Shown here in pieces: positions 5,823 through 24,238 of a stretch of DNA of 24,238 nt. The position numbers were made by a program, and so were the translations under genes. Source of the DNA: a virus; the IMG/VR virus record IMGVR_UViG_3300048588_000116, positions 1 to 24,238 of that record; one strand, written 5' to 3'. Every line of letters begins with the position of its first letter. Position 1 is the first letter of the stretch. Below the pieces are notes generated by a model, which was given only the letters and a program-made list of their open reading frames with translations, was not told the DNA's origin and searched no databases.

Positions 5823-6048
5823 TGGTTTCCTCCAGTAATTCCTTGATGTAACTCACCAGCTCGTGCTGGCCGACGCGATAGGCCATCTTGATCGCCGACT
5901 CATCCAGCATGGTGTTGCGCTGGAAAGTGTCCTCCAGCATTTTCAGGCACGCCTGACCTTGCGGGTTTGACGGTCCGAATGTTGCCTGCACCGTCTCGGA
6001 CTTCTTGCGCAGCACATCGCGCCAGTCACGTTTTTCAGCCTGCTGCAT
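5812..6048 (-). CDS. Bbp19-like small phage protein
   Basis: A 78-residue protein with the pattern F-G-P-x(3)-G-Q-A-C-L-K-M-L-E-D-T-F and a C-terminal A-Y-R-V-G-Q-H-E-L-V-S-Y-I-K. This matches the short proteins found between portal and scaffold in BPP-1-like podoviruses (Bbp19), whose role is not established. It overlaps the portal stop by 14 bases and the scaffold start by 11, so all three are translationally linked. A head-assembly role is inferred from position. Confidence 0.68.
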   Translation of the reverse strand: MQQAEKRDWRDVLRKKSETVQATFGPSNPQGQACLKMLEDTFQRNTMLDESAIKMAYRVGQHELVSYIKELLEETNGR

Positions 6049-7684
6049 TCGTTGCCTCCTGATTCACCAGTGCGGCCTTGCCCTGCTGCTCGGCGATCAT
6101 CGCAGCCTGCATGGCTTCCTCGGCCTCGCGGCGCTCATCGCGGATGATTTCGACGCCTGTCTCATCCCTGACAATCTCAGCCGGTACGGACATGCGCCGG
6201 CCAATCAGGCGCATCGCTGCATCCAGATCGATGTTGTCCATGGGGTTCGGTTGCTGGGTTGCCAGTGCGGCCTCGGCCATGCCTGCGCCGAATGACACGT
6301 AATCCTTGATCACATTGGCCTCGGCCATGCGCATAGCGCGGGCAAGCGGACCGATGTATTCCACGTCCATCTGGGCGTTGCTCTCGACTACTGCAGGGGG
6401 TGGCGGTGGCAACACACCTTCCCTGGCCATCATCTTGAAGGCCCGGGCAATGATCGGTGAGAGCAGGTCATTCTGGATGCGGCCCATCGTCGGCCCCAGC
6501 ATCTGCAGCACTTCCTCCTGCATGCGGGCGATCTCAAACGCCGTGCGCTCCTTGTTGTCGGTGAGCAGCGCCTGCAGGCCCGGCACGAAGAAGTATTCCT
6601 CGATGCGTGACTCCAGCTGGCTCATGCGCTCAAAGGTGCTGAACGCGGGCTTTTGCGGGAACAGTTCCTGGATGCCTTCGACGCTGCGCACGACTGAGAC
6701 GCCGCCCGCGCGCAGGTCCATATCGGTGATCATGGCGCGCTCTTCGATAGCCATAGGTGGGTCCACTTCCTTCTCGGCCCGCACCAGGTCCAGCTGCACC
6801 AGCCGGTTCAGGGTTTTGATATCGCCCATCGCCATCATGCCGGGCGAGTTGCCCCACACAGAGCCGCTTGTTTTACGCCAGCGCGGTATAAATACGGACA
6901 TCTCGTAATACCCGCCCTTCTTGCCCAGGCATTCCTTGGTGTCGTGCAGGATGTAGCAATGGCCCCAGGGGCGCTTGGAGGGTGAGGCTTTCTGGCCTAC
7001 CGGCACGATGCGATTGTTTGCCGGGTACACGCAGTACAGGACTTTCAGCTTCTCAGTGCGGCCTGCCTCCTCCAGTTTCTTGATCGAGTCGGGTACGTCA
7101 TCGCCAAACTTGCTGATGATCTCGGCAGGCGTCCACATGATCTCGCGGTAGAAGCGCAGCACGCGGCCTGTGAAATCTTCCTCGAAGAAGCATTCCTTCA
7201 GCGGCACAGCGGTGAACAGCAGGCCATTCCACTGGCCATTGGGCCCGGGCGTCTCCTCCAGCGTGATGCACGCGGTGCCGAAGCCGCACAAGTCCTGGTA
7301 CGTCTCGTTGATCTGTAGGTCGAGATTGGAATCCTGCAGGCCGTTGTACACCCGGTCAGAGACATCGTTCAGCCAGACAGCGGCCTGCTGGTTCTCGTTC
7401 AGCGCCTTGTCGCGGAATTTCATATCGAACCAGCGAATGCTCGGGCTGGTCACTGCGCCGTGAATCTTCGCCGCCAGCTTCTGGTGCGAGACCACTGCCA
7501 CGCTGCTGTAGTCGGAACCGTAGCGATCCCACTCGACCGAGGTTTCGCCCGCGTCCTCTTTGAAGAAGTCGCCGCGATAGGGTGTGACAAACCGCTCGAT
7601 GTCATCCCATTGCTTCTGGACGACCGTGCGATTGCTTTTGAGTGCATCAAACCTCTTGCAGAGGTCAATTTCGAGGGTGGACAT
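6035..7684 (-). CDS. Portal (head-to-tail connecting) protein
   Basis: A 549-residue protein of the podoviral head-to-tail connecting family (PF12236-type): N-terminal RFDALKSNRTVVQKQWDDI with FVTPYRGDFF, a GSDYSS loop, a KIHGAVTSPSIRWFDM region and NPMDNIDLDAA near the C-terminus. Twelve copies would form the ring through which DNA is packaged and ejected. The ATG at 7684-7682 was chosen over an upstream in-frame ATG (7705) because GGGAG sits at the right distance. The C-terminal part is acidic and alanine-rich (the barrel/crown region). It follows large terminase in the standard packaging order. Confidence 0.9.
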   Translation of the reverse strand: MSTLEIDLCKRFDALKSNRTVVQKQWDDIERFVTPYRGDFFKEDAGETSVEWDRYGSDYSSVAVVSHQKLAAKIHGAVTSPSIRWFDMKFRDKALNENQQAAVWLNDVSDRVYNGLQDSNLDLQINETYQDLCGFGTACITLEETPGPNGQWNGLLFTAVPLKECFFEEDFTGRVLRFYREIMWTPAEIISKFGDDVPDSIKKLEEAGRTEKLKVLYCVYPANNRIVPVGQKASPSKRPWGHCYILHDTKECLGKKGGYYEMSVFIPRWRKTSGSVWGNSPGMMAMGDIKTLNRLVQLDLVRAEKEVDPPMAIEERAMITDMDLRAGGVSVVRSVEGIQELFPQKPAFSTFERMSQLESRIEEYFFVPGLQALLTDNKERTAFEIARMQEEVLQMLGPTMGRIQNDLLSPIIARAFKMMAREGVLPPPPPAVVESNAQMDVEYIGPLARAMRMAEANVIKDYVSFGAGMAEAALATQQPNPMDNIDLDAAMRLIGRRMSVPAEIVRDETGVEIIRDERREAEEAMQAAMIAEQQGKAALVNQEATNAAG

Positions 7685-7744
7685 GCGTGTCTCCCGACAG
7701 AGCATTGCGCATTGATACCGTAAACTGCCGGGAGTGTGTAGGAT

Positions 7745-12948: not shown

Positions 12949-13140
12949 TCAAGCCGCCGAGACGTTGAACAGATCAGGCCGCAATTCGTAGCGGATTCGC
13001 AGCTCTTGTTTCTCCGGAATCGGTGCGCCGTCCTTCCACTGGCATACGGCAGAGCGCTCAATTCCCAGTGCGCGAGCGAGTTCGGCTTGAGTACCGAAAA
13101 TTGCGACCGCAGCCTCTTTGGTGATGGGTTCGGGTTTCAT
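12949..13140 (-). CDS. Cro-like regulator
   Basis: A 63-residue protein from ATG 13140-13138; an ATG six bases upstream is too close to the GGA ribosome site. It carries one helix-turn-helix: ITKEAAVAIFGTQAELARALGI, then ERSAVCQWKDG, followed by PIPEKQELRIRYELRPDLF, a pattern typical of phage Cro and toxin-antitoxin-like HTH proteins. It is divergent from the repressor gene, with two operator palindromes between them, and heads the leftward operon of replication and late genes. It probably represses the same operators with different affinity and helps commit to lysis. Family clear; details inferred. Confidence 0.85.
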   Translation of the reverse strand: MKPEPITKEAAVAIFGTQAELARALGIERSAVCQWKDGAPIPEKQELRIRYELRPDLFNVSAA

Positions 13141-13154
13141 TTGCATAATCCGTA

Positions 13155-13164
13155 AAGCGTGCTT
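13155..13164. promoter_or_regulatory. Operator-like palindrome 1 (AAGCGTGCTT)
   Basis: A 10-bp near-palindrome just downstream of the predicted cro transcription start. Three other related sites in the window share AAGYRYGCTT. Confidence 0.65.
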
Positions 13165-13171
13165 AACTTGT

Positions 13172-13200
13172 ACTGTAAAGCACGCTGAACCGAAAATCAA
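13172..13200 (-). promoter_or_regulatory. Leftward cro promoter (PR-like)
   Basis: On the minus strand, TTGATT (13200-13195), a 17-base spacer, then TACAGT (13177-13172). Operator 2 sits in the spacer next to the -10, and operator 1 at about +1, so a bound repressor would block it. Confidence 0.55.
13178..13187. promoter_or_regulatory. Operator-like palindrome 2 (AAGCACGCTG)
   Basis: Second copy of the 10-bp palindrome, 23 bases centre-to-centre from operator 1 (about two helical turns), inside the predicted cro promoter. Confidence 0.65.
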
Positions 13201-13213
13201 CTACCCTCGGTGC

Positions 13214-13552
13214 ATGTCATCGATTATGGAAAGATTTACAGAAGCCCGGCTTGCCAGCGGATTATCACAGGCCGCATTGGCACGCGCCCTTTCGCTGAGC
13301 AGATCGGCAGTCAGCCAGATAGAGAGCGGGGAAACCAAAACCCTGAAGGCTTCGACGCTGGTGGCTTTTGAGCGGGCGACTGGATATCGCGCATCCTGGG
13401 TAGAAACCGGGCGCGGGCCACGCAAGGCAATACTAGGTCACGCTGACCAACTAGAGCGCACCTACGATAAGATCACCCGCCTGGATCAGTCTTTCCGCGA
13501 GAAGATCGAGGCCGACATCGATTTTTATTTGAAGCAGCAAGAGCGCGGTTAG
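13214..13552 (+). CDS. Short CI-like repressor without cleavage domain
   Basis: A 112-residue protein from ATG 13214 (108 residues from ATG 13226; neither has a clear ribosome site, and a near-leaderless mRNA like lambda cI is possible). It has a classic helix-turn-helix (GLSQAALARALSLSRSAVSQIESGE) followed by a helical segment and WVETGRGP, typical of phage repressors. The rest (ILGHADQLERTYDKI...IDFYLKQQERG) is a short coiled-coil-like tail that could dimerise. No S24/LexA-type catalytic domain is present, so it is not expected to self-cleave in an SOS response. It lies between two operator pairs. Confidence 0.8.
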   Translation: MSSIMERFTEARLASGLSQAALARALSLSRSAVSQIESGETKTLKASTLVAFERATGYRASWVETGRGPRKAILGHADQLERTYDKITRLDQSFREKIEADIDFYLKQQERG

Positions 13553-13749
13553 CCGCCTGCTCCACCCTTCCCAGATTTTCCCTGCTTAGTTTCCGCAATT
13601 TTTCCATCAGAGTGTTCTTGTTATTTTCTTCCATGACCGACTCCACTGTTGGTGCGTAAGATATAAATCGACCCCCGTTTTTTGTCCAGAGCCAAACGCT
13701 TACTAGTCGCCTTTTCAGCCCGGTTTTTCGTTAAGTAAAATATTTTGTT

Positions 13750-13759
13750 AAGTGTGCTT
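13750..13759. promoter_or_regulatory. Operator-like palindrome 3 (AAGTGTGCTT)
   Basis: The palindrome overlaps the first two bases of the -35 box of the predicted rightward promoter. The 268-base gap between the repressor stop and the next start holds nothing else but this control region. Confidence 0.62.
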
Positions 13760-13787
13760 GACGTGTGATTGTTAAGTGCGCTAATCT
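13758..13787 (+). promoter_or_regulatory. Rightward early promoter (PL-like)
   Basis: TTGACG (13758-13763), an 18-base spacer and TAATCT (13782-13787). Operators 3 and 4 overlap the -35 and the -10 respectively. It would drive the recombination-to-integrase operon. Confidence 0.55.
13774..13783. promoter_or_regulatory. Operator-like palindrome 4 (AAGTGCGCTA)
   Basis: Fourth copy, 24 bases centre-to-centre from operator 3, overlapping the predicted -10. Preceded, like operator 3, by GTT. Confidence 0.6.
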
Positions 13788-14128: not shown

Positions 14129-14424
14129 GAATTACAATCGAGGTCGAATTCGAGGCTGACTGCAATGTCAGCGGCGACGACAAGGTCACGCTGCAAGCGC
14201 TGCGCTTCCCGGGCTGCAAACAGAATTTGCTGCCCTACCTGTCGAAAGTTGAGCAGGTCAAAGCGCAGGCCGAGCTGGAGTCTCAGGTAGAACAGCTTGC
14301 CATGGCCACCGCCGACGCGATCCGCGAGCGCCGGGAAATGGCCGGCGACTACCGCCGCGAGATTGCCCGGGAATTCCAGCGCGAGGAGCTGGCCAGCCGG
14401 GAAAGCCAGCGGGGTTTCCGATGA
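14125..14424 (+). CDS. Small protein before the exonuclease, unknown
   Basis: A 99-residue protein from ATG 14125, which overlaps the previous stop and has AAGGAG upstream. The N-terminal 40 residues are beta-like (MRITIEVEFEADCNVSGDDKV), and the C-terminal half is a charged coiled coil rich in R and E. It directly precedes the exonuclease (ATGA overlap), so it may be a partner of the recombination pair. No known motif. Confidence 0.62.
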   Translation: MRITIEVEFEADCNVSGDDKVTLQALRFPGCKQNLLPYLSKVEQVKAQAELESQVEQLAMATADAIRERREMAGDYRREIAREFQREELASRESQRGFR

Positions 14425-15326
14425 ACGCGCCGGAGCCGGTAGTAACGCCGGTCCAGCGCCCCCAGTACGCACCAGGCTGGTACCGCGACCTGACCAACGA
14501 GGAATACCACGGCAGTTCCGGATACTCCTCCAGCCAGATCAAGACGCTGATCGAGCAGACGCCCGCGCACTTGCGGCACAGCTTCACTGTGCAGAAGGAA
14601 TCCACGGCCAACATGCTGCTGGGTACTGCTGTGCACGCGCTGATCCTGGAGCCGGAAAAGTTCCACAGCCAGTTTGCCATCTCGGAAAAGTACGATGGCC
14701 GCACGACTGCCGGGAAAGCGGCTAAAGCCCACTTCGAGGCTGGCGCCGTCGGCAAGACAATCATCACCGAGGACATCTACCAGAAGGCGCAGGCGATGGC
14801 CGCGTCCGTCCTGAACCACCCGATTGCCGGCCTGCTGGTGCAGGACGTGATTACCGAGTCATCGGTGTACTGGTGGTACAAGTCGATGGATGCCGACGAC
14901 GATACGCGCTACAAAATCATGGCCAAGGTGCGGCCCGACATCCTGTGCCGTGGCTACCCGGTGATCGCCGACATAAAGACCACCGCCGATGGTTCCTACT
15001 CAGGATTCATCAAGTCGATCCAGAATTTTTATTACCACGTCAGCGCCGCCATGTACCTGGAAGGCGTGAACCAGTGCAAGCCGCTGCTGGATGAAATGGG
15101 CCGCATGGCGTTCACCAAGTTCGTGTTCATCTGCGTGGAGAATTTCGAGCCCTACTTGACCAGCGCTTACGAGCTGTCACCGGAGTACCTGGACATCGGC
15201 AAGCTGCTGTATCGCCGCTCCATGCGCACGCTGCGTGATGCGCTGGAGGAGGGATTCCCTGGCTACCCCGAGGAAGTCCGAATCATCGAACCACCGTCAT
15301 GGGCCAATCGTGGCCACGTTGTTTAA
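14421..15326 (+). CDS. PD-(D/E)XK exonuclease, RecE/ExoVIII-like
   Basis: A 301-residue protein with the landmarks of the phage PDDEXK exonucleases (DUF3799-like). These are YSSSQIK (35-41), a GTAVHALIL segment (68-76, with G68 and H72), E146 in ITESSVYWW, D173 in RPDIL, and D184-x-K186 in ADIKTT, then Q201...Y205 in QNFYYHVSAAMY. It should degrade one strand of duplex DNA to give single strands for annealing. The next gene encodes the probable annealing partner. The C-terminus is long but ordinary. Catalytic residues are all visible. Confidence 0.85.
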   Translation: MNAPEPVVTPVQRPQYAPGWYRDLTNEEYHGSSGYSSSQIKTLIEQTPAHLRHSFTVQKESTANMLLGTAVHALILEPEKFHSQFAISEKYDGRTTAGKAAKAHFEAGAVGKTIITEDIYQKAQAMAASVLNHPIAGLLVQDVITESSVYWWYKSMDADDDTRYKIMAKVRPDILCRGYPVIADIKTTADGSYSGFIKSIQNFYYHVSAAMYLEGVNQCKPLLDEMGRMAFTKFVFICVENFEPYLTSAYELSPEYLDIGKLLYRRSMRTLRDALEEGFPGYPEEVRIIEPPSWANRGHVV

Positions 15327-16753: not shown

Positions 16754-17678
16754 ATCGTTGACCATCTACCAGATCACCCTCCCCACCCGCGTGCTGCTGG
16801 AGCGCCTGCCCATTGCGCTGGAGAAGCACAAATTCCAGAAGTGCCTGAAGAAGCAGCCGCGCTCGCGCGGGTATGTGCCGCCGCTCGGGCATGGCGAGGA
16901 GATCACCTACGGCGCCAACGGCGGGACGCTGTTCTGCCTGCGCACCGATGAAAAGACTGTGCCGTCATCTGCTGTCAAAGAGCTGCTGCAGGAGCGCCGC
17001 GCGAAGGTCGAGAAGGAGGACAAGGAGTTTTCCAAGGTCGATGAGCGCGTGGCGAAGGAGGCGATCATCGAAGGCTTCCTGCCAGGCATTCCACCGGCGA
17101 CCAGCCTCACCTACGCCTACGTCGATAGCGTTCAGGGACTGTTCTACCTCGGTGCCAGCGGTGACGCTGCCGACGAGTTCACGAAGTTCCTGGGCGATGC
17201 CATGGGCGGTACCGCACCACTCAAGCTGCTGGGCATCAAGGATGACCCCTGCGACAAGTTCACCGCGTGGGTGCAGAACACGGCATTGCTGGGTGACGAC
17301 TTCGAGCTGGGCACGCAGGGCGCGCTGAAGCACGAGGGCACCGAGGGCGGCGTCGGAATCATGAACATCAGGCACGAGGATTTTGGATCCCCGGAGCTGC
17401 TATCGCTGATCGAAGCGGGCCGCAAGGTGTGTAGCATTTCGCTGGTTCACGAGGACATGGAATTCAGGCTCACGTCATCGCTGGGGATCCGCAACATCCG
17501 GCTGGGCGCGGAGGTGCTCGCAGAGGCAGCAGACGATGACGGAAAAATCGAGCGGCCAGAGGAATTCGCGTCGTTCGTGCCTGCGATGCGCGCGGTCATG
17601 GGGGCGCTGGATCCACTGTTCGGAGGTTGGCCGAAGCAGGAGATTTTGGACCTGCAGGATAGGGAGGATGCGGCGTGA
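16746..17678 (+). CDS. rdgC: RdgC-like recombination-associated protein
   Basis: A 310-residue protein from GTG 16746, chosen because AGGAGG lies 7 bases upstream and the N-terminus then reads FKSLTIYQI as in RdgC. It has the expected length (E. coli 303) and the family landmarks: EKHKFQKC, PRSRGYVPPLG, LFCLRTDEKTVPSSAV, AYVDSVQGLFYLGAS and the C-terminal LFGGWPKQ. RdgC forms a ring around duplex DNA and inhibits RecA-driven events. In a phage it may protect or steer recombination by the exonuclease/annealing pair upstream. The whole protein seems intact. Confidence 0.9.
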   Translation: MFKSLTIYQITLPTRVLLERLPIALEKHKFQKCLKKQPRSRGYVPPLGHGEEITYGANGGTLFCLRTDEKTVPSSAVKELLQERRAKVEKEDKEFSKVDERVAKEAIIEGFLPGIPPATSLTYAYVDSVQGLFYLGASGDAADEFTKFLGDAMGGTAPLKLLGIKDDPCDKFTAWVQNTALLGDDFELGTQGALKHEGTEGGVGIMNIRHEDFGSPELLSLIEAGRKVCSISLVHEDMEFRLTSSLGIRNIRLGAEVLAEAADDDGKIERPEEFASFVPAMRAVMGALDPLFGGWPKQEILDLQDREDAA

Positions 17679-17905
17679 GAGTGCATCAACTAATCGCATT
17701 GTGGGCGCATGCCCTTGCGCCAGGTCGTGGCAGAGAATATCGCCGGGTTTCGCGGCTTATCGGCGGCCATCGCAACCCGAAATATTCACCAACCTCATTC
17801 GATGTGGAGAGGCATGCCGCCGCACAGGATCGCCGGGAGCACAGGGCTGCGAAACGCTACGGCAACCACGTCAAGTGCCTGGCAAACAACCGGTGCCTGC
17901 GATGA
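17675..17905 (+). CDS. Small basic protein, unknown
   Basis: A 76-residue protein whose GTG start overlaps the rdgC stop (GTGA) and whose stop overlaps the cupin start (ATGA). It is rich in R and H (RRVSRLIGGHRNPKY, RHAAAQDRREHRAAKRYG). It might bind nucleic acid because of its charge, but no motif is seen. The coupling on both sides is the main support. Confidence 0.55.
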   Translation: MRVHQLIALWAHALAPGRGREYRRVSRLIGGHRNPKYSPTSFDVERHAAAQDRREHRAAKRYGNHVKCLANNRCLR

Positions 17906-18330
17906 TCAAGCGCCCACCCGACAGAATCATCGGCGAGAACTATTTGCATAGGTGGTACCTGGTTCCGCGAAATGTATTTTCCAACATCATGCTGCACCTG
18001 TTCATCGGCAGCGACGATGACCGGGCCTGCCACACGCATCCTTGGTGGAGCTTGTCATTCTTGCTTATGGGCGAGCTGTGGGAAGTGATCGAGACCGGGC
18101 ATGAGACTGGCTTGGTCAAAACGAGAACCCGGAGAATCCGGCGATTCATGCCTGTAGTTCGCAGCGCATCACACGCGCACCGCCTGATCCTGAATAGCGA
18201 CAAGGCATTAACTCTGTTCATTACTGCGCCAGTGATTCAGCGATGGGGATTCTGGTGCGGTACACGATGGGTCCACTGGAAGGACTTCACCGACGAAACC
18301 GGGAACGGGATTGGAAGGGGGTGCGAGTGA
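17902..18330 (+). CDS. Phage cupin-like protein
   Basis: A 142-residue protein matching a recurrent phage cupin family: YLHRWYLVPRN, FIGSDDDRACHTHPWWSLSFLL, GELWEVI, SHAHRLIL, TLFITAP and WGFWCGTRWVHWKDF. The metal-binding-like H-x-H (HTHPW) and the second H-x-H (SHAHR) positions are present, so a metal-centred beta-barrel is likely. Substrate and role are unknown; such genes recur in phage accessory regions near modification genes. Here it sits beside a DNA adenine methyltransferase. The start is the ATG overlapping the previous stop. Confidence 0.75.
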   Translation: MIKRPPDRIIGENYLHRWYLVPRNVFSNIMLHLFIGSDDDRACHTHPWWSLSFLLMGELWEVIETGHETGLVKTRTRRIRRFMPVVRSASHAHRLILNSDKALTLFITAPVIQRWGFWCGTRWVHWKDFTDETGNGIGRGCE

Positions 18331-18830
18331 GCGGCATGGGATCTCACCAGTCGGCAGCGATGCAGGAGGAAACCTGGTTGACGCCGCCGCACATCCTGCG
18401 CGCTCTCGGTCCGTTCGATCTGGACCCCTGCGCCGCCCTGCAACAACCGTGGCGCACTGCCCACCGCCAATTCACGATACTGGAAAACGGTCTCAATCAG
18501 GAGTGGTCAGGCAGGGTCTGGTGCAATCCGCCCTACGGACAAAAAACAGGGCAGTGGCTGGCAAAGCTGGCAGATCACGGTGATGGCATCGCGCTGATAT
18601 TTGCACGCACTGAAACCGCCATGTTTTTCGATCACGTCTGGAATCGGGCTAGCGCCCTGCTGTTCATCGAGGGGCGCCTGCACTTTCATCACATCGACGG
18701 AACGAAGGCCAAGGCCAACGCAGGCGCGCCATCGGTACTAATCGCTTATGGCGAATCGTGCGCGCAGCGATTGCGCAACAGCCTCCGCGAGATCTCGGGG
18801 CATTACATACAATTAAAGGGGTGCGAATGA
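18327..18830 (+). CDS. DNA N6-adenine methyltransferase (phage Dam-like)
   Basis: A 167-residue protein from GTG 18327 (overlapping the cupin stop, with GGAAGGGGG 5 bases before). It has TWLTPPHILRAL, DLDPCA (31-36) and the catalytic NPPYG (67-71) of the phage Dam family (PF05869). The C-terminal half has the usual ALLFIEGRLHFH and GAPSVLIAYG. It methylates adenine, probably to evade host restriction or alter phage DNA control. An ATG at 18336 would be three codons shorter. Complete. Confidence 0.9.
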   Translation: MSGMGSHQSAAMQEETWLTPPHILRALGPFDLDPCAALQQPWRTAHRQFTILENGLNQEWSGRVWCNPPYGQKTGQWLAKLADHGDGIALIFARTETAMFFDHVWNRASALLFIEGRLHFHHIDGTKAKANAGAPSVLIAYGESCAQRLRNSLREISGHYIQLKGCE

Positions 18831-19195
18831 CCACCACCGAACAAATCCAGTCCCACCTACGCACCTGCGACCTACAGCGCACGCGAGCAGAGACCACTGC
18901 TGCTGCCCTTAAAATCTCCAACACCACAATGCGCCGAAGGTTGCGCGCGGAAGGCGTGCAGTATTACGACCTGGTCGAGGCCGAGCGCCTGCGCCGATGT
19001 GAGCAGCTGCTGCAGGACAAGCCGACGATGCGCGGCAAAGAGATGATGGACGAACTTGGATACACCGAACTCAACAGCTTTTTGCGCGCATTCAAACGAT
19101 GGACTGGCCTGAACTTTCGCGACAAGCACAACCCTGCGCCGGTCAAATTGTGCGAGTGCTGTGGTGGGAGTGGGAGGGTGTTGTGCAATCCATAG
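18827..19195 (+). CDS. Standalone AraC-type DNA-binding domain with C-terminal Cys motif
   Basis: A 122-residue protein made of both AraC helix-turn-helix units. First: AALKISNTTMRRRLRAEG, and VEAERLRRCEQLL; second: EMMDELGYTELNSFLRAFKRWTG and FRDK. No N-terminal effector domain precedes them. The tail KLCECCGGSGRVLC carries a C-x-x-C-x-G-x-G motif (DnaJ-type half zinc module). It probably activates or represses promoters constitutively, or through its metal site. It is coupled to the methyltransferase (ATGA overlap). Host origin of the domain is likely. Confidence 0.82.
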   Translation: MTTTEQIQSHLRTCDLQRTRAETTAAALKISNTTMRRRLRAEGVQYYDLVEAERLRRCEQLLQDKPTMRGKEMMDELGYTELNSFLRAFKRWTGLNFRDKHNPAPVKLCECCGGSGRVLCNP

Positions 19196-20800: not shown

Positions 20801-20983
20801 ATGTGGCTGACCGATGAAGAAGTGAAAGCCCTCACTCGCAGGCATCGACCCAGCGCGCAGGCCAGGGTGCTGCTGCAGTCAGGCATCCCGTTCCGCATGG
20901 TCGATGGCCGCCCTATTGTTGAAAAGGGGATCGTGGTTAAATCGGAGCCCCGGCCCCAAGTGAGACACCTGCCGCGTGCGTAA
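20801..20983 (+). CDS. DUF4224 protein, candidate excisionase
   Basis: A 60-residue protein matching DUF4224: MWLTDEEVKALTRRHRPSAQ, then L-L-Q-S-G-I-P-F-R-M-V-D-G-R-P-I-V. It overlaps the integrase start by 8 bases. The LT.EE+..LT.......L...GI.F....GRP.V pattern is a small winged-helix-like unit similar in shape to excisionases. DUF4224 genes often sit next to integrases, so a recombination directionality role is plausible but unproven. Confidence 0.75.
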   Translation: MWLTDEEVKALTRRHRPSAQARVLLQSGIPFRMVDGRPIVEKGIVVKSEPRPQVRHLPRA

Positions 20984-21962
20984 GGACGCATTCAATAACC
21001 CACTACCTCCCCGGATGTACTACAAGAACGGGCGCTATTACTACGTCAGGGACAATCACTGGCACACACTGTCACGGGACTACACTGAAGCGCTGGTGCA
21101 ACGCGCTCGCCTGGAGGCCCCGACAGGTGACTGGGAGAAACTGGTAGCCGTAGTGTATGAACGATACGAGGCGCGTTACAAGGCCGGGGATCTCACCTCG
21201 AATGCCTTCAAGCAATACTGCGGCCTTCGCCCGCGAATAGAATACGGGTTTGCAGAATTTCACCCGCGAATGGTGAGAACGTCCGACATCACTGCGTTCC
21301 TGGATGAGTATGAGAATACGCCGAACACCGCCAACCGTATGCTGACCATCATCAAGGCTGTTTTTGAGCGAGGCGTCAGGCGAGGACTGTGCGATACAAA
21401 CCCCGCCTATGGCATCAAGCGGTTTGAGGAAGGAAAGAGGGATCGCTATTTGCAGGACTGGGAATTCAATGCGATCCGGTCACGGACAAATCCTCACACC
21501 CAGTTGATCATGGATATGTGCTACCTCACCGGCCAGCGGATCAGCGACGTGCTCGCGATACAGCACAAAGACATCACCAGTGAAGGGGTGTATTTCAAGC
21601 AGGGTAAGACCGGGCAGCGCGTCCTGGTGAATATGAGCGATGAACTGGGGCGCGTTGTGCGCGAAGCCAAGGCGCTGCACAAGGTCATGGCGTTGTACCT
21701 GTTCCACCCAACTGGCAAGGCCACCCGCTACAGCTACAAGGGCATCAGGGATAACTACATGCGCGCAGCGGTCGCAGCAGGGGTAAAGGATACCCGGCTC
21801 CATGATCTTCGCGCCAAGGCCGCGACGGACGCCGAGGCAGAGGGGATTGATCCCCAGGCGCTGATGGGTCACGCATCTGCAGCTATGACAAAGCGCTACC
21901 TGCGGCTGCGCAAAACAGTACAGACAGACAGCCCCAGTCTTAGAAGGTTGTTAGAAAATTAG
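20976..21962 (+). CDS. int: Tyrosine integrase
   Basis: A 328-residue recombinase from GTG 20976. An N-terminal arm-type region (about 1-50) is followed by a core-binding region (about 52-140) and the catalytic domain. Active-site residues are visible: R188 (TGQRISDVL), K211 (QGKTGQ), H276 and R279 (LHDLRA), H299 (MGHA) and Y308 (TKRYLR). It should recombine attP and attB with the help of a directionality factor. It ends the rightward operon, and the attP-like region follows at once. Confidence 0.92.
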   Translation: MRKDAFNNPLPPRMYYKNGRYYYVRDNHWHTLSRDYTEALVQRARLEAPTGDWEKLVAVVYERYEARYKAGDLTSNAFKQYCGLRPRIEYGFAEFHPRMVRTSDITAFLDEYENTPNTANRMLTIIKAVFERGVRRGLCDTNPAYGIKRFEEGKRDRYLQDWEFNAIRSRTNPHTQLIMDMCYLTGQRISDVLAIQHKDITSEGVYFKQGKTGQRVLVNMSDELGRVVREAKALHKVMALYLFHPTGKATRYSYKGIRDNYMRAAVAAGVKDTRLHDLRAKAATDAEAEGIDPQALMGHASAAMTKRYLRLRKTVQTDSPSLRRLLEN

Positions 21963-22207: not shown

Positions 22208-22381
22208 ATGATTCTGGAAAACGTCATCGTGTTATTGATCCTGGCGGCGTGCACTGTCCTTGCCGCACCGCGTGTCGATGACAGTCACTTCGGCCAGCCC
22301 TGGGTGCCAGACTGGCTATACCTCATCGCTATTGCCGGCATGATTGGATCATTTGGCTACATGGCCTGGTCAGTCCTCTAA
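22208..22381 (+). CDS. Two-TM small protein, unknown
   Basis: A 57-residue protein with hydrophobic segments at about 6-19 (VIVLLILAACTVLA) and 36-57 (WLYLIAIAGMIGSFGYMAWSVL) joined by a polar loop. The ribosome site is weak. It ends 12 bases inside the opposite-strand giant virion gene (convergent). Possibly a superinfection-related or moron-like membrane protein, but nothing shows that directly. Confidence 0.5.
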   Translation: MILENVIVLLILAACTVLAAPRVDDSHFGQPWVPDWLYLIAIAGMIGSFGYMAWSVL

Positions 22382-24238
22382 CTCCTGACGCTGGCTGTAC
22401 GGCGTGCCAAACAAGACGTGGCTCACCGCCTCACCGAAATCATCCGCCGTCGCCAGTGCCTCGGTGTACATCACCACCTGGTAGGCCGGCAGCCACGTAA
22501 CCAGCGTCATCGCCTTTGCAATGTTCCTAATATCCGTCCAGTTGCCCTCCCCGGTCAGCCAGTCGTATGCACCGCCAGATGCGCCGACCAGTGATTGCAC
22601 TACCTGGTCCAGCGGTGTGCTGGGCGCTTGCCAGTCTCGCGTGGCCGCAGAGTAGACATCGCGGAAGATTGGCACCCCCGCCACATAGCTGGAGGCGATG
22701 CGCGTGGCCAGGTACGGTAGCAGCTCGTCGTCATCGTCCTCATCATATTTCAGGATCGCCTCTACCATCGCCGGCACCAGCACGATGTACAGGTTAGCCG
22801 CGGCGAACTTGCCCAGGGATTTAGCGCGACCGTTCGGACCCTCTCCCTTGATGAACCCCTTGATCAGGTCCTGTCGCCCGGTGAGGCGCAGCTGGTTGTG
22901 CTGCACGGAAAAGTAGGTGTAGAACAGCGTCACCAGCTTGGACAGTTCATTGCCCTGCTGCAGGCCGGCCAGATCCTTCAGGCCACCCCCGGACTGCGTC
23001 TGTCGCACGGTGGCGTCGGCGTACTGGACTGACTCGCCCACGGTCCTGCCCTCGCCCTGCGCTTTCTCGTGAGCTGCCAGCCAGGTTGCCGCGTTGATGT
23101 GTTTCTGCATGGCGATGATCATGTAGAACGCCTGGTCTTTCACCCAATGCAGCGCCTCGGTTCCTGGATTGCGCCGCATGATCTCCACGGCGTTGTCTGT
23201 AAACTCCCGAATATCCCGATCAATCTGGCTGTCCAGGTGCCGCAGCTCCGGGCTGGCGTCGAGCGCCCGCTGGTAATCGGGATGCACCCTGGCCTGCCCC
23301 ATGGTGCCGACACGGCCATACGACAGCTTCAGCAGCCAGCTAGCCATGTTGAGCGCACCTACCTCCTTGGCTGCGGGTCCGGTGCCGAGTACCTGCATCA
23401 TGGCGCTGGATACCTTCCAGCCCAGGCCCAGCAGGGATCCACCGAACCGCGCGCGGCGGAATATCGTGTCCATGGTTTTGCTGGAATCGTGCGATGTCTG
23501 CGCGATAGTGCCATTGGTGGCGATGTTCTGCAGCCAGGAGCGCAGCTGCTTGTAGCCGTCAGCGCCGAAGTAGGAGTGATACATCGCAGAAAATTCCGAC
23601 TTGCGGCGCAGCTTGTCGAAGTTGCGCACGGCCTCGTAGTGGGTGATGTAGTGCACGACCTGGTGCAGGTGCTGGGGCAGGCCCGCGAAGTCGAGACTGA
23701 TCACACCCCCGGCGCCAGTCATCCGGCTTTTGGTCATGGACTTGGACACCTGCCCAGTGATGGGGCTCGGGCCCATGTCGATACTGTTCGACTCCTCCAG
23801 CACGGAGGCTTCACGACTGCCAATGGTATCTTTGTACTTGACCGGGTAGTACCACCCCGACAGCTCGACGCCGTACTTGGCCAGATACAGCGGCTTGGCC
23901 TCCACCTTGGGCGGGCGGATACCGTCGACGCGCTCAGACACTGCGGCCATTGGTTCGTACATTCTGTCGATCATCTGGCCAAGTGCTTCGATGCGCCGGA
24001 AATCCTCCAGCGTCAGTTCGTCCTGCAGCTTCGCCAGCACCTCGCGCTCCTGTCCCTTCCAGCGCATCGAGAACAGCCTGTCCCAGTTGCCCTGGTTGCC
24101 CATGTTCAGCGCGACCACGTACAAGTTGCTCCGTTTTAGCTTGGCGCCCAGGAAGTTTATAGTTTCATCCAGGCGCTGCGCATCCTTGCGCGTGAGCGTT
24201 CCCATGATGGACTGCAGTTCGGCCACGGAGGTCGACAG
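22370..24238 (-). CDS. C-terminal part of a giant virion (ejection/polyvalent) protein
   Basis: A partial protein of 622 visible codons; the frame is open through the right edge, so the start lies beyond. It contains ARFGGSLLGLGWKVSSAMMQ (near 256-275 of the visible part), resembling the PLxRFG/large polyvalent protein type, then long helical regions (HWVKDQAFYMIIAMQKHINA; FYTYFSVQHNQLRLTGR) and a hydrophobic C-terminal part (AAANLYIVLVPAMVEAI). Such proteins in podoviruses are packaged inside the capsid and ejected with the DNA. Its length, lone position and strand fit the end of the late operon on a circular map. Confidence 0.65.
   Translation of the reverse strand: MSTSVAELQSIMGTLTRKDAQRLDETINFLGAKLKRSNLYVVALNMGNQGNWDRLFSMRWKGQEREVLAKLQDELTLEDFRRIEALGQMIDRMYEPMAAVSERVDGIRPPKVEAKPLYLAKYGVELSGWYYPVKYKDTIGSREASVLEESNSIDMGPSPITGQVSKSMTKSRMTGAGGVISLDFAGLPQHLHQVVHYITHYEAVRNFDKLRRKSEFSAMYHSYFGADGYKQLRSWLQNIATNGTIAQTSHDSSKTMDTIFRRARFGGSLLGLGWKVSSAMMQVLGTGPAAKEVGALNMASWLLKLSYGRVGTMGQARVHPDYQRALDASPELRHLDSQIDRDIREFTDNAVEIMRRNPGTEALHWVKDQAFYMIIAMQKHINAATWLAAHEKAQGEGRTVGESVQYADATVRQTQSGGGLKDLAGLQQGNELSKLVTLFYTYFSVQHNQLRLTGRQDLIKGFIKGEGPNGRAKSLGKFAAANLYIVLVPAMVEAILKYDEDDDDELLPYLATRIASSYVAGVPIFRDVYSAATRDWQAPSTPLDQVVQSLVGASGGAYDWLTGEGNWTDIRNIAKAMTLVTWLPAYQVVMYTEALATADDFGEAVSHVLFGTPYSQRQELED

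Follow-up and report, generated by a model that had tools for sequence, protein, structure and literature searches.

The cro-repressor region and its four operator sites

The window analysed here is the whole stretch of 24,238 nucleotides of viral DNA. It contains a cro gene and a repressor gene on opposite strands, with a pair of palindromic sites on each side of the repressor gene. The features of this region and of the downstream operon are as follows.

12949..13146, minus strand: cro, encoding a 65-aa lytic repressor of the P22_Cro family
13152..13167, no strand assigned: OR site 1, GTAAAGCGTGCTTAAC, directly upstream of the cro start
13172..13200, minus strand: candidate PR for cro, TTGATT-17-TACAGT (alternative TTTACA-17-TTTACG)
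13175..13190, no strand assigned: OR site 2, GTAAAGCACGCTGAAC, within the candidate cro promoter
13214..13552, plus strand: cI-like repressor, 112 aa, HTH_3 and two C-terminal helices
13732..13737, plus strand: lone half-site GTTAAG, read from the sequence, with the second half absent
13747..13762, no strand assigned: OL site 3, GTTAAGTGTGCTTGAC, ending in TTGAC, five bases that belong to the PL -35
13758..13787, plus strand: PL, promoter of the recombination operon, TTGACG-18-TAATCT (-10 candidate)
13771..13786, no strand assigned: OL site 4, GTTAAGTGCGCTAATC, over the PL -10
14421..15326, plus strand: RecE/exonuclease VIII-like gene in the PL operon (phrog_412, E 8e-74)
20976..21962, plus strand: tyrosine integrase (PF00589, 64.5 bits), on the same strand as the PL operon

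The Cro protein scored 40.7 bits against PF14549 (P22_Cro), above the Pfam curated cut-off of 30.2, and shared ~43% identity with P22 Cro across residues 3-51. The start codon of the repressor was backed by alignment. Gene length and a domain scan bore out the original prediction of a 112-residue repressor with no cleavage domain, as peptidase S24 was absent from the protein. This absence is meaningful because the same scan detected S24 in the full-length repressors of related loci (L045, L046 and L048, each at 70 bits or above), which served as positive controls. The predicted structure (pLDDT 86) consisted of an HTH domain followed by two C-terminal helices only, and neither the model nor the domain scan contained a C-terminal cooperativity domain of the lambda/P22 type. 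The nearest solved structures to the model were those of P22 c2 with its operator, a moderate match (E 0.0019).

The sites had been described as four copies of AAGYRYGCTT at 13155, 13178, 13750 and 13774, with centre spacings of 23 and 24 bases within pairs. The places and both recomputed spacings were correct, but the motif was exact only at 13155 and 13750, with one mismatch each at 13178 and 13774. Scanning the window with this 10-bp motif and one mismatch allowed gave 11 matches against 10.9 expected, which is not significant, and thus the motif is unable to carry the claim. It was trimmed too short; the operator is 16 bp, and the four sites are copies of GTNAAG-N4-CTNNAC starting at 13152, 13175, 13747 and 13771. 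Unbiased repeat finding placed three sites in one 16-nt family and paired the fourth with the third site. Exactly two pairs of TNAAGN4CTTNA sites spaced by 20-27 bp were present in the window, compared with a mean of 0.2 in 100 random windows, of which one had two or more. The two clusters lie ~595 bp apart, centre to centre.

Four other phages (L006, L012, L021 and L051) served to train an operator matrix, with the window left out of training. Over ~24,200 window positions, sites 1, 2, 3 and 4 ranked 2, 3, 1 and 6, with scores of 21.5, 17.6, 21.6 and 10.5 bits, and no position outside 13.1-13.85 kb reached 12 bits. Site 4 is the weakest operator, ranking beneath two unrelated positions. A third operator per cluster was sought in the window, and nothing was found beyond the half-site at 13732, which is a possible degenerate third OL site. 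A terminator-like call at 13751-13782 was rejected, as it was produced by the inverted repeats of the operators themselves. The region had no DNA-level matches to named phages or plasmids.

Promoters at the operator pairs and the PL operon

Both PR candidates overlap the cluster of sites 1 and 2, in line with the predicted position of one pair at the cro promoter, and a counterpart of PR (TTGATT-17-TACCAT) is retained in the relative L009. The other pair lies, as predicted, over the promoter of the recombination operon, with a TTGACG -35 and a -10-like TAATCT. By plain hexamer count, slightly higher scores go to GCTAAT, a 16-bp alternative, and to a 9/12 promoter upstream at 13712; we preferred TAATCT as the PL -10 because L009 (TTGACG-17-TAATCT) and L029 (TTGACG-17-TAATTT) retain a similar element. 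The TTGAC -35 at the operator end was common to the window, L006, L012, L021, L043, L051 and L029. This promoter had also been assigned to the integrase; only the recombination part of that assignment is borne out, and the integrase part is inferential because the gene lies ~7 kb downstream.

Other genes were observed in this operon or on its strand. A phage-encoded RdgC-like protein lies in the recombination operon at 16782-17675 (plus strand; PF04381, 134 bits), and a 122-aa AraC-type HTH_18 protein in the PL operon at 18827-19192 (plus strand) may be an extra regulator. A Dam-like adenine methyltransferase (PF05869; 18243-18827, plus strand) and a gene matching phrog_4786 'cysteine dioxygenase' (17536-18327, plus strand) overlap in different frames.

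Related loci with the same, another or no repressor

The environmental phages L006, L012, L021 and L051 have two pairs of the same operator around a short repressor, so that both the sites and the layout are conserved. When each test locus was held out, its four sites ranked 1-4. The sites in these phages were located by looking near the Cro and repressor genes, and therefore the hold-out probes the motif and not the choice of loci. Integrases were carried by the window, L051 and L021 records.

Other relatives differ between the operator pairs. L029 is a sister phage whose exonuclease is 95% identical to that of the window. At the same location it has a short repressor (~117 codons) without S24 that is unrelated to the window repressor; four GCGTAA-N4-TTAC-like sites, arranged as two pairs, flank it. 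In L009 and L010, whose Cro is 90% identical to that of the window, the gap between the divergent operons is only 172 bp and contains no repressor; both edges of the gap align to the window, and ~0.5 kb is missing. L009 retains remnants of all four sites, in which 42/48 arm positions but only 5/16 spacer positions are identical to the window (p=4e-5). The AG and CT of AG-N4-CT are intact in L009 (16/16 across the four sites), and each of the four departs from the window at arm position 13. The corresponding gap of L043 (Cro 66% identical) also has no repressor and keeps operator-like sites. L009, L010 and L043 are short contigs of 5-18 kb, and since these records are fragments, a repressor may be located elsewhere in these phages. 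The fragment records L030 and L031 contained neither an HTH_3 protein nor an integrase. In L009 (675-1508) and L010 (119-892), on the minus strand, the first gene of the PL-side operon encodes a pentapeptide-repeat-like protein (ANLAGANLDG...), with unlike repeat numbers in the two records.

The operator sequence of the window was absent from L044/L120 (Cro 55% and repressor 35% identical). Six further short-repressor loci gave mixed results: L125 and perhaps also L121 had partial site sets, L127 and L128 showed other operator sequences by eye, and no clear operator set was found in L120 or L126. In L128 (2929-3445), two pairs of TAAACYATRGTTTA-like sites were seen by eye around a 111-aa repressor, and TTGACA-17-TTTAAT overlaps the distal pair, a window-like layout with a different operator sequence. 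Searching genome contigs for the repressor gave only three remote matches, one of which (L038, Quisquiliibacterium) was on inspection a full-length repressor.

A probable P22/dicAC-type switch and its alternatives

We consider it highly probable (roughly 0.86) that this region controls the choice between lysis and lysogeny in a temperate phage, as a switch on the P22/dicAC plan in which Cro and a short repressor share operators. We infer binding by the two proteins, the order of occupancy and the route of induction in the following scheme. We expect GTNAAG-N4-CTNNAC to be read both by Cro, with its P22_Cro fold, and by the 112-aa repressor. From PR, cro would be transcribed leftward, towards the replication and virion genes, and the repressor gene would be transcribed rightward; PL would drive the rightward recombination operon with the exonuclease VIII-like gene, RdgC and probably the integrase. 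In a lysogen, the repressor would block PR from sites 1 and 2 and also occupy sites 3 and 4, holding the PL -35 and -10. Upon induction or infection, Cro would occupy the sites, turn the repressor off and later tune PR and PL down. No RecA-dependent self-cleavage is expected because the repressor has no S24, and a repressor without a self-cleaving domain implies a different route of induction; the likeliest are an antirepressor, of the kind in Gifsy and dic, and spontaneous switching. No antirepressor was named among the scanned proteins of the window, a 24-kb fragment. The window has no perfect LexA box, and its one-mismatch matches were at chance level (11 compared with 8.7 expected).

Two operator clusters also flank cI in lambda OR/OL, and this general logic is common with the window. 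Lambda differs in its unrelated operator, three sites per cluster, a cleavable CI with a cooperativity domain and another Cro fold. The original prediction, which equated the logic with lambda OR and OL, was partly supported as a whole: OR/OL-like clusters flank a short repressor, but the proper comparison is with P22 immC and dicAC because Cro is of the P22_Cro family and the operator core matches P22 operators. These, with dicAC contributing the short, uncleaved repressor, are the closest known systems.

P22 operators have TNAAG-N4-CTTNA at five sites in OR/OL. In the window this core is exact in sites 1 and 3, with one mismatch in site 2 and two in site 4. The OR1-OR2 spacing of P22, 23 bp, matches the first pair of the window, and the Cro family and gene orientation relative to the early operons are as in immC. 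The full 18-bp P22 operator matrix did not single out the sites in the window (ranks 11, 18, 60 and 137), and therefore the kinship is at the core level only; the outer arms of P22 operators are AT-rich, unlike those of the window. P22 also differs in its c2 repressor (216 aa with a cleavage domain) and in the three sites annotated in both OR and OL, compared with two per cluster here, and the window region has no DNA-level match to P22.

The dicA-dicC-dicB region of the E. coli Qin prophage has, like the window, a short uncleaved HTH_3 repressor and a P22_Cro-family partner, DicC. The features typical of dicAC, an HTH_3 protein of ~110-140 aa without S24, a P22_Cro partner and operators on both sides, were all found in the window, and the gene order and a 16-bp GT...AC frame are also common to both. 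In the dicBp promoter, TTGACC-17-TAATCT, the operator GTTAGTCATGGCTAAT covers the -10, comparable to PL and site 4. The dicAC operator core is GTTAG-N6-CTAAC in contrast to GTNAAG-N4-CTNNAC, and three operators per region are reported, compared with two here. The dic locus belongs to a cryptic prophage, and the dicB operon has cell-division/lysis genes where the window has recombination genes. Short repressors without a cleavage domain are already documented: DicA (135 aa) lacks the cleavage bond and represses dicBp, which rises 22-fold upon dicA deletion (PMC10448788), and the Gifsy repressors GfoR and GtgR (~136 aa) are not cleaved and show heteroimmune operator variation (PMC3121763). The Gifsy repressors resemble that of the window, and a LexA-controlled antirepressor is known in Gifsy.

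The switch reading draws on the 16-bp family in two pairs, the held-out matrix ranks, the P22_Cro match, the core common to P22 operators, the HTH_3 repressor without S24 and its P22 c2-like model, the traceable sites of L009/L010, the TTGAC at the operator end, the dicBp parallel and the integrases. Counting against it are the weak site 4, the two-site clusters, the failure of the P22 matrix, the lack of the operator in L044/L120 and the absence of an antirepressor or perfect LexA box from this 24-kb fragment. It is rather unlikely, though the most serious alternative, that the sites are primarily Cro operators at divergent early promoters, later adopted by the short repressor as an exchangeable insert. 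Operator-like sites kept in repressor-less gaps (L009/L010 and L043), the four sites of L009 with an intact AG-N4-CT and the unrelated repressor at the same place in L029 argue for this order of events. However, those repressor-less contigs are short enough for a repressor to sit elsewhere, a temperate ancestor that lost its repressor would give the same pattern, and the change of position 13 at all four L009 sites looks as if one reader had been lost.

The original prediction had called looping between the pairs possible, but a genuine lambda-type switch with OR and OL joined by looping repressor tetramers across ~0.6 kb is improbable. Its sole support is the geometry of the two pairs; the domain that mediates looping in lambda is replaced by two short helices after the HTH, the distance between the pairs varies among relatives, and L009 lacks the insert. 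If the sites were palindromes arisen by chance in AT-rich intergenic DNA, this would account for the unremarkable frequency of the 10-bp motif and for the failure of the P22 matrix alone to single the sites out. This is a very improbable origin, given the ranks obtained with the matrix from other phages, the same 2+2 set in four other phages and the conservation of arms but not spacers in L009.

The P22/dicAC-type reading extends this plan to uncultured phages. The switch it describes is minimal, with a two-plus-two arrangement of a defined operator and proteins of 65 aa (Cro) and 112 aa (repressor), and could readily be reconstructed experimentally. Mildly novel is the retention of the operator pairs in relatives whose intervening repressor has been replaced or is absent. 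We suggest, tentatively and at somewhat less than even odds, that in a large group of environmental phages the operator pairs and Cro may make up a constant framework, with exchange of the repressor cassette between the pairs (short, full-length, unrelated or absent) and with repressor-less members relying on Cro alone for their early transcription. If so, exchange of a single 0.5-kb segment flanked by the conserved operators would confer or remove lysogeny. Sister loci that lack the repressor but retain the sites provide a test of moves between temperate and non-temperate lifestyles.

Two further genes were observed in the window. A 618-aa protein (22373-24226, minus strand) matches only positions 1610-2204 of the 2231 positions of phrog_9880, and its gene probably runs past the contig end. 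The portal protein (6038-7705, minus strand) shares ~37-41% identity with its counterparts in Alteromonas phage ZP6 and Vibrio phages VP2/VP5; the window phage encodes an integrase.
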